This document shows positions 41,848 to 43,803 of a stretch of 45,104 nt of DNA, in pieces. How positions within the stretch are numbered: the first letter of the stretch is position 1; each line of letters begins with the position of its first letter. The translations under genes and the position numbers were made by a program. Location of the stretch: NCBI GenBank assembly GCA_016779605.1, contig JADHNH010000018.1, positions 1 to 45,104 on the forward strand, written 5' to 3'. Below the pieces are notes generated by a model, which was given only the letters and a program-made list of their open reading frames with translations, ran no database searches and was not told the DNA's origin. Source of the DNA: Nevskia sp. (GTDB lineage Bacteria > Pseudomonadota > Gammaproteobacteria > Nevskiales > Nevskiaceae).

Positions 41848-43803
41848 ATGAGCGCCGTCGACAACACCAGTGCCCACCGCAGCACCGTGCCGGACTCCGT
41901 CAACCTGCCGATCGGCTCCAAGGGACCGGTCACCGCTTCGCGGCACCGCCGCAACGCAGTGGTCTATGCGGTGCTGTTCGTGCTGGGGCTGCTGCCGACC
42001 TGGCTGGATGCGGGAGCCGCCTGGCGCGCCGCCGGCCTGGGCCTGCTGATGCCCGGCGCCGGCTTCCTGTCCGACGGCGGCTGGCTATGCCTGCTGTTCC
42101 CGCTGACCGTGGCGCTGTTCTTCCTGTCGCTGATCGCCTGGTTCTGGTGCGGCATGGTGGTGGCGCCGCTGGGCGTCTGGCTGGGCACGGCGCTGCTTGC
42201 CGGGCTGCTCGCGCAGGGCCACGCCTGGGGCCCGGCGGCCTACCTGGCGCCGGCGGCGGCGGCGGCGGCGTTCGCCTTCTTCCAGTACCGCGGCATGCGG
42301 CGCCAGGCCAAGGACCAGGCGCATTACGGCCTGCGCCAGACCTTCTTCGCCGGGTCGCTGGCCGAGGTGGGCCAGCGGGTGCTGAGCGAGCCGCAGGCCG
42401 GCGAACGCGAGCTGACGCCGGACCAGCTCGGCGCGCTGCGCTACTGCCTGGACCGCGCGCTGCAGCCGGTCGGGCAGTTCAAGGGCTACACCGTCATCGA
42501 CCAGTTCCAGCCGGCCGCGCTGCGCTACCAGATCAACCACCTGGGCTACGCGCTGGCGATGGCGCAGGGCCACTACACGCCGAGCTTCCAGGGCTACCTG
42601 TCGCAGGCGCAGCGCAACCTGATCGAGGCCTACCTGCAGCGCCGCGTCTGGGGCTACTGGGTCTACGAGTCGATGTGGGGACATTTCAACTTCACCGACT
42701 TCGACCCCGCCGGCAAGGACAACATCATGCTCACCGGCTATTTCGGCATGCAGGTGGGGCAGTACATGCTCAACTCCGGCGACCGCCGCTATGCCGAGCC
42801 GGGCAGCCTGACGTTCCGGCTCAACCAGCGCACCGCCTACCGCCACGACCTGCACAGCGTGGTCGGCTCGGTGGTGGCCAACCAGGGGCGCTCGGACTTC
42901 TGCCTGTTCCCGTGCGAGCCCAACTGGATCTACGCCGTGTGCAACATGTACGGCATGGGCGCGCTGGCGGTGCACGACCGCGTGTTCGGCACGCGCTACG
43001 TGCCCTCGGTGCTGCCGCAGTGGATGCAAAGGCTGGAGAGCGAATTCACCGACGCCAAGGGTTCGCTGGTGGCGCTGCGCTCGTACTGGACCGGCCTGCG
43101 CATGCCGTTCTACGCCGGCGAGGCCGGCTTCGCCTTCTACGCCAACGTGTTTGCGCCGGCGCTGGCGCGGCGCCTGTGGGCGGTCGGCCGCAAGGAGCTG
43201 TCCTTCTGCCTGGCCAAGGACGCGCAGGGCGACACGCGGCTGACCCTGCCGCCGGAGGCGCTGAGCTGGCTCGACACGATCGACCCCGGCAACTACCGCC
43301 CGGGCCTGCTGTTCGCCTACGCCGCGGTGCTGATCTGCGCCCGCGAGTTCGGCGACGACGAGCTGGCGCAGGCGGCGCAGCGCTCGATGGACCAGGACTG
43401 CGGCCGCATCGTCGACAACGGTTCGGTCTGGTACACCGGCGGCTCCGGCTGGGCCAACATCGCCGCGGTCGAAGGCAAGCTCATGCGCACCGGCGACTTC
43501 CGCAACTCCTTCGTCAAGGGCCCGCCGGAATCGGTATTCAAGGGCCCCTACCTGGAGCAGGCGCGTTACCCGGAGGTGCTGGTGGCCAAGGCCTTCAGCC
43601 GCGGCGAGGACCTGGAGCTGGTGCTGTACCCGGGCGCGGCGCACGGCCGGCAGTCCATCGGCATCGCCCGGCTCAAGCCCGATGCCGCCTACCGCGTGCA
43701 GGGCGACCAGCCCGGCACACTGCGCGCCGACGCGGCGGGGCAGGCGACGCTGGACGTGGACCTGCGCGGGCGCACGGCACTGCACCTGGTGCCGGCGGCC
43801 TAA
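41848..43803 (+). CDS. Membrane-anchored linalool dehydratase/isomerase-like protein
   Basis: The 651-residue protein has about four membrane helices in its first 150 residues (roughly 37-54, 80-100, 104-121, 127-146). A soluble domain follows that aligns with linalool dehydratase/isomerase (LDI) of Castellaniella defragrans. Conserved features are VID (Asp 218, LDI Asp39), RRVWG, DNIM (Met 294, LDI Met125) and the pair CEPNWIYAVC (Cys 356 and Cys 365, LDI Cys171 and Cys180, same nine-residue spacing), then HDRVFGTRY. At the place of LDI His129 it has Tyr 298. A beta-rich tail of about 75 residues is extra. LDI proper is periplasmic, about 400 residues, and interconverts geraniol, linalool and myrcene. 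The altered His and the added domains suggest another alkenol or terpenoid substrate. The alignment is from memory. Confidence 0.78.
   Translation: MSAVDNTSAHRSTVPDSVNLPIGSKGPVTASRHRRNAVVYAVLFVLGLLPTWLDAGAAWRAAGLGLLMPGAGFLSDGGWLCLLFPLTVALFFLSLIAWFWCGMVVAPLGVWLGTALLAGLLAQGHAWGPAAYLAPAAAAAAFAFFQYRGMRRQAKDQAHYGLRQTFFAGSLAEVGQRVLSEPQAGERELTPDQLGALRYCLDRALQPVGQFKGYTVIDQFQPAALRYQINHLGYALAMAQGHYTPSFQGYLSQAQRNLIEAYLQRRVWGYWVYESMWGHFNFTDFDPAGKDNIMLTGYFGMQVGQYMLNSGDRRYAEPGSLTFRLNQRTAYRHDLHSVVGSVVANQGRSDFCLFPCEPNWIYAVCNMYGMGALAVHDRVFGTRYVPSVLPQWMQRLESEFTDAKGSLVALRSYWTGLRMPFYAGEAGFAFYANVFAPALARRLWAVGRKELSFCLAKDAQGDTRLTLPPEALSWLDTIDPGNYRPGLLFAYAAVLICAREFGDDELAQAAQRSMDQDCGRIVDNGSVWYTGGSGWANIAAVEGKLMRTGDFRNSFVKGPPESVFKGPYLEQARYPEVLVAKAFSRGEDLELVLYPGAAHGRQSIGIARLKPDAAYRVQGDQPGTLRADAAGQATLDVDLRGRTALHLVPAA

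Follow-up and report, generated by a model that had tools for sequence, protein, structure and literature searches.

The window analysed here, a 45,104-nucleotide stretch of Nevskia sp. DNA (contig JADHNH010000018.1), carries at 41848..43803 on the plus strand a gene for a 651-residue protein of the Ldi family, whose namesake is linalool dehydratase/isomerase (LDI). The gene was recognised from a stop-free open reading frame (ORF), a match to the Pfam family Ldi (PF18566; residues 226-534, E = 3.5e-91, 306.4 bits against a gathering score of 26.1) and an alignment with the linalool isomerase (Lis) of Thauera linaloolentis; the NCBIfam profiles assigned no family to its product. The AlphaFold2 monomer model (mean predicted local distance difference test score of 91.3) contains long helices at residues 27-52, 79-101, 105-121 and 130-177 and, together with the alignment to the N-terminal domain of Lis, points to a four-helix membrane domain at approximately residues 27-150 (41926..42297, plus strand). 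This agrees with the original prediction, although a 19-residue hydropathy cut yielded only three segments, which counts against four transmembrane helices. Next comes an (alpha/alpha)6-barrel catalytic domain (residues 181-564; 42388..43539, plus strand), and it is over these residues that the predicted fold matches LDI. The C-terminal beta region (residues 567-651, approximately 568-649 in the model; 43546..43800, plus strand) lies outside that match, as had been anticipated, and is also found in Lis.

We compared the barrel with LDI of Castellaniella defragrans (5hlr, 5g1u), a periplasmic enzyme (PMC6600392, available text) that is approximately 22% identical to the window protein and whose solved chain matches residues 181-564 only. 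A pentameric assembly with an intersubunit active site is a further trait of the LDI-type branch. LDI residues are numbered here as in the 5hlr chain; the 5g1u numbering is higher by one, so that His128 is the catalytic His129. The key active-site residues listed in the accessible part of PMC12455561 are H128, Y44, D38, C179 and C170, and the accessible part of PMC6600392 reports that LDI is inactive when its four cysteines are exchanged for Ala or Ser. In the alignments, the Cys356-Cys365 pair (42913..42942; all residue coordinates are on the plus strand) corresponds to Cys170/Cys179 and Met294 (42727..42729) to Met124. Asp202 (42451..42453) was placed opposite Asp38 by MAFFT alone, the profile alignment beginning at residue 224; of the active-site residues that had been proposed as conserved, the Cys pair and the Met are therefore kept and the Asp probably so. 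Equivalents of Tyr44 and of Cys48-Cys101 are absent, since neither Tyr nor Cys occupies those columns in either alignment. The proposed replacement of the catalytic His by Tyr298 (42739..42741) was recovered by phmmer, MAFFT and the profile alignment with hhalign, which sets Tyr298 opposite His128; Lis has Trp at this position. The window protein thus shares the barrel and the Cys170/Cys179 pair with the LDI-type branch, but not His128.

The locus of Lis (L017, T. linaloolentis 47Lol) was found in a scan of named genomes for Ldi loci, which gave 107 pattern matches, 95 of them confirmed and the best 80 of these 95 kept. Both full-length lis cloning primers of PMC4791888 match the start and the end of the L017 ORF exactly; counted from the primer ATG this ORF encodes 647 residues, versus the 644 stated in the text available of that paper. 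The window protein is 68.6% identical to Lis over residues 1-649, from the membrane helices through the last beta strand, with a single 4-residue gap near the N-terminus, and in the tree both share one 72-row branch with a local support of 99. The N-terminal membrane domain, the Ldi barrel, the C-terminal beta region, the Cys pair and the Met are common to the two proteins, whereas Lis has Trp, Phe, His, Thr and Glu where the window protein has Tyr298, Tyr234 (42547..42549), Gln302 (42751..42753), Gly534 (43447..43449) and Asp202. For Lis, the portions available of PMC4791888 describe a cytosolic Ldi-like domain and, within residues 1-139, four predicted transmembrane helices, an activity that is located in the inner membrane and needs a reductant, an ultraviolet-visible spectrum giving no sign of a cofactor, and the formation of both linalool enantiomers.

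Because Lis has the same full-length architecture, this architecture has been known since 2016 and the window protein was grouped with Lis; the membrane domain and the beta tail were accordingly ruled out as new additions. Judged by its sequence, the window protein is a further member of the known Lis type and not a new architecture. The original prediction of an LDI-fold enzyme acting at the cytoplasmic membrane on a hydrophobic alkenol is thus well supported, but it loses its novelty, given that it matches the known Lis (PMC4791888). The different chemistry that it also envisaged holds in so far as Lis is reported, in the part available of PMC6013536, to isomerise without dehydrating. Contig C96 of this genome encodes a paralogue (L002) that shows the architecture and the Cys pair of the window protein, is 36% identical to it and carries Trp at position 298.

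To place residue 298 within the family, we used 214 Lis-type and other rows, LDI excluded, made up of 118 database matches and 96 of 97 locus ORFs (that of L053 being too short). The database rows are the matches longer than 600 residues among 120 listed of the 864 protein clusters found from the window protein at E <= 1e-10. Since the window protein had served as the seed for these rows, and a pattern requiring Trp or Tyr had supplied part of the loci, a search seeded with LDI was added, giving 68 LDI-type proteins at E <= 1e-5, LDI included. Column 298 of the 214 rows holds Trp in 160, Tyr in 42, Phe in 11, Asn in one and His in none. The 80 scan loci came through two patterns, and the one that requires Trp or Tyr at 298 is biased against His, but the rows free of that bias (the 118 database rows and 14 Pfam-profile loci, L002-L015) hold no His either. 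On the LDI-type side, His128 and the Cys170/Cys179 pair are present in 68 of 68 rows and Met124 in 67. Cys356, Cys365, Met294 and Tyr227 are invariant across the 214 rows, and the Asp202 column is Asp or Glu in 206. Asp38, Tyr44 and each of the disulfide cysteines (Cys48-Cys101) occur in only 26, 25 and 19 of the 68 LDI-type rows, respectively, so these residues are not general even in that branch. Cys518 is invariant in the 118 close relatives, present in 155 of the 214 rows and replaced by Ala in LDI.

At the level of these alignments, the family has two sides, one with His (the LDI side) and one with an aromatic ring (the Lis side). The change from His to Tyr, originally taken as peculiar to the window protein, is therefore a difference between branches, with His in all 68 LDI-type rows and Trp, Tyr or Phe in 213 of the 214 others. 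That Tyr298 might be a rare defect in an LDI was ruled out by the lack of His among the 214 rows, and that LDI might be the sole bearer of His by the 68 LDI-type rows. Two loci (L003 and L004), from two genomes of one genus in the family of the window's genome, encode 525-residue Ldi-family proteins that lack the N-terminal membrane domain, have Tyr in the His column and carry the Cys motif CEPSCVFQICN. Ldi membrane proteins are also widespread in Actinomycetota (L059-L094; Mycobacterium, Nocardia, Nocardioides, Aeromicrobium and Pseudonocardia), several of them with Phe at the His column.

For association with column 298 we scanned 470 columns of the Lis clade, whose 136 rows include a few near-copies. 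Three stood out, with values of 0.99 for position 234, 0.97 for 534 and 0.88 for 302, the next column reaching 0.61. The states at 298/234/302 were Trp/Phe/His in 91 rows, Tyr/Tyr/Gln in 32, Trp/Phe/Gln in 12 and Trp/Tyr/His in one. Position 534 is Gly in 31 of the 32 Tyr rows and in none of the 104 Trp rows, where it is Cys (58), Asn (27), Thr (15) or another residue (4). The trees require four changes of residue 298 inside the clade, and a single origin of the Tyr type as one clade was rejected by the approximately unbiased test (p-AU 0.00047), run on 46 hand-chosen rows, 43 from the Lis clade and three from outside it. The 147-row tree contains 138 distinct sequences, the remainder being copies, and leaves out two of three Trp-type database rows, together with LDI, L003, L004 and the short rows. 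For the covariation of 298 with 234 and 302, a sign test gave p 0.125 at best, a value below which it cannot fall because there are only four independent contrasts. The set is looser in the wider family, as in 15 rows that combine Trp with Tyr234 and Met302. The Tyr type might act on a substrate, or within a route, other than that of the Trp type. In the literature we found no description of two pocket classes or of the His/aromatic split, although subscription papers on LDI structure and mutants may discuss the position.

We then searched 18 Lis-clade genomes, most of them metagenome-assembled genomes (MAGs), for the geranyl-CoA carboxylase. In T. linaloolentis, atuCFE are placed upstream of lis (available text of PMC4847356); the AtuC and AtuF queries were the pair of L018, a Steroidobacter MAG locus, named because they are 72% and 70% identical to the two genes that lie upstream of T. 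linaloolentis lis. AtuC at no less than 61% identity was found in G058, G059, G060, G077, G080, G082 and G083, all with Trp-type copies only, and AtuF at no less than 60% in the same seven genomes. The carboxylase is thus present in 7 of 9 Trp-only genomes but in none of the 8 that carry a Tyr-type copy, the window's genome among them (G000, G081, G084, G086, G087, G089 and, with both types, G078 and G079; Fisher p 0.0023, not corrected for kinship). "Trp-only" was judged by the loci of the named-genome scan, which may have missed further copies. The two Trp-only genomes that lack the carboxylase (G085 and G088) carry closely similar lis genes. G090 (L053; best carboxylase match 43%) was excluded from the count, position 298 being unreadable, as were five genomes outside the Lis clade (three Trp, one Tyr and one Phe; best matches 44-47%). 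The Trp copy of G080 falls within a Tyr-rich branch of the tree, so that shared ancestry may not be a sufficient explanation of the pattern, yet G078, G079, G085 and G088 have Trp copies and lack the carboxylase as well. A geraniol dehydrogenase query matched at 68% or more in five genomes, at 51% in G077 and at 48% or less in the other twelve. AtuA (PF07287) occurs in 54 of 58 genomes of the window's family and in 17 of 19 genomes with Ldi loci, and is therefore useless as a pathway marker.

The gene lies near an acyl-CoA ligase (38183..39667, plus strand) and an AraC-type regulator (39696..40511, minus strand). The regulator is the genome's best match (47%, the next 46%) to the AraC-type gene beside T. 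linaloolentis atuA, and the ligase belongs to the superfamily of the one adjoining lis in L018 and L025, where the row reads zinc alcohol dehydrogenase, lis, acyl-CoA ligase and aldehyde dehydrogenase. Among the Tyr-type loci, no neighbour gene is common to three or more. Elsewhere in the window, the genes at 5514-14179 (an acyl-CoA ligase, then HydA, acetone-carboxylase gamma, HydA and HydB) resemble an operon of the acetone/acetophenone-carboxylase type, and a second HydA/HydB pair is found at 23393-28294. The Tyr-type lis locus L027 (468-5544 and 5777-7865) likewise has HydA- and HydB-like genes as well as one for acetone-carboxylase gamma, its HydA/HydB genes being only 23-28% identical to those of the window. 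Two luciferase-like monooxygenases stand immediately upstream of lis in L027, and others near lis in L049 (6179-9227; Tyr-type) and L053 (3108-9408; lis cut short), the latter also with an aldehyde ferredoxin oxidoreductase.

From its likeness to Lis, we consider that the window protein is probably a cofactor-free 1,3-hydroxyl mutase that interconverts linalool, or an analogous tertiary allylic isoprenoid alcohol, and its primary isomer at the inner membrane. The four membrane helices would seat the barrel on the cytoplasmic face, where a substrate dissolved in the lipid would enter. An acid group (Asp202 or one Cys of the pair) would protonate the hydroxyl, which would leave as water and give an allylic cation. 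This cation would be lined by the aromatic side chain of residue 298 (Tyr here, Trp in Lis), which would not act as a base, and water would re-add at the opposite end of the allyl system. The mechanism proposed for Lis likewise has water lost with the help of an acid, leaving an allylic cation, and returning at the other end (PMC4791888, available text). The His of the LDI-type branch would then mark dehydration to the alkene.

Several observations weigh against this proposal. The role given to the aromatic ring is a guess, and that of Asp202 as the acid is doubtful, since its column is Asn or Gln in 4 of the 32 Tyr-type rows and the Asp is present in only 26 of the 68 LDI-type rows. Lis made in E. 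coli was inactive, and for this reason Lis was assigned by enrichment and mass spectrometry (PMC4791888, in the part available); in the literature on linalool isomerase we found no activity reported for any Tyr-type member. Unlike in Thauera, no close geranyl-CoA carboxylase was found in the window's genome, which is 95% complete in 188 contigs; the best AtuC and AtuF matches are 45% and 47%. Nor was there a close geraniol dehydrogenase (best match 38%, against 68% in Thauera), so that there is no support here for linalool being degraded by the known route. The best AtuC/AtuF pair of this genome instead resembles a second carboxylase pair of Thauera, at 77% and 64% identity, that presumably belongs to the leucine pathway, and the product could exit by a route other than geranyl-CoA.

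The identity of the substrate divides the interpretation. It is possible, although we would not favour it, that the protein is a true linalool isomerase, with linalool as the natural substrate as in Thauera and the exchange of Trp for Tyr neutral. The 69% identity to Lis fits this, as do the AraC-type regulator and the acyl-CoA ligase nearby, which recall the L018 and L025 clusters; however, the ligase ranks only seventh in the window's genome as a match to the lis-adjoining ligase of L018, orthologues of the carboxylase and the geraniol dehydrogenase were not found there, and Tyr298 is repeatedly accompanied by three further changes. Those changes lead to an alternative that we regard as equally possible, in which the mutase acts on some other tertiary allylic alcohol: this could be a longer isoprenoid (nerolidol/farnesol) or belong to the C5 pair 2-methyl-3-buten-2-ol/prenol. 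The Tyr/Tyr/Gln/Gly set puts smaller residues in place of Trp and, mostly, of Cys, Asn or Thr, and would enlarge the pocket provided that these residues line it; positions 234, 302 and 534 are, however, only putative pocket-lining positions, and the two candidate substrates imply opposite pocket sizes. The absence of a close carboxylase from all eight genomes with a Tyr-type copy agrees with a different alcohol, and a C5 product could feed directly into the leucine pathway, to which the 77% identical carboxylase beta subunit presumably belongs, but the Tyr-type loci offer no widely shared neighbour in favour of this alternative. Our literature search on nerolidol/farnesol isomerisation found nothing, and that on 2-methyl-3-buten-2-ol to prenol returned nothing beyond the Lis paper and one plant study of a different isomerase.

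We regard it as very improbable that the protein is an LDI-like dehydratase or hydratase with Tyr298 serving as the base in place of His. Tyr can act as a base in other enzymes, and the LDI fold, the Cys pair and probably the Asp are kept; nevertheless, Lis, a far closer relative, is reported not to dehydrate (PMC6013536, available text), and His is invariant in the 68 LDI-type rows and absent from the 214 others.

Taking these results together, we tentatively propose, with somewhat less than even confidence, that position 298 splits the family into dehydrating LDI-type enzymes with His and membrane mutases with an aromatic residue, and that the mutases fall into two pocket classes whose residues change together, Trp298/Phe234/His302 with Cys, Asn or Thr534 in one and Tyr298/Tyr234/Gln302/Gly534 in the other. 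The repeated switch would track the loss of the geranyl-CoA route, so that the Tyr class, with the window protein as an early-branching member, could be a second group of allylic hydroxyl mutases acting on another tertiary isoprenoid alcohol.

LDI and Lis are the only family enzymes described as characterised in the available portions of PMC6013536 and PMC6600392. Needing no cofactor, they shift a tertiary allylic hydroxyl or remove it, a reaction sought after for the production of dienes and scents, and the family is far larger than these enzymes (864 clusters found from the window protein and 68 proteins from LDI). With an unvarying His on the LDI side and an aromatic residue in its place on the Lis side, position 298 poses a clean, testable question: whether this residue decides between dehydration and isomerisation, and whether the four-position set decides the substrate.
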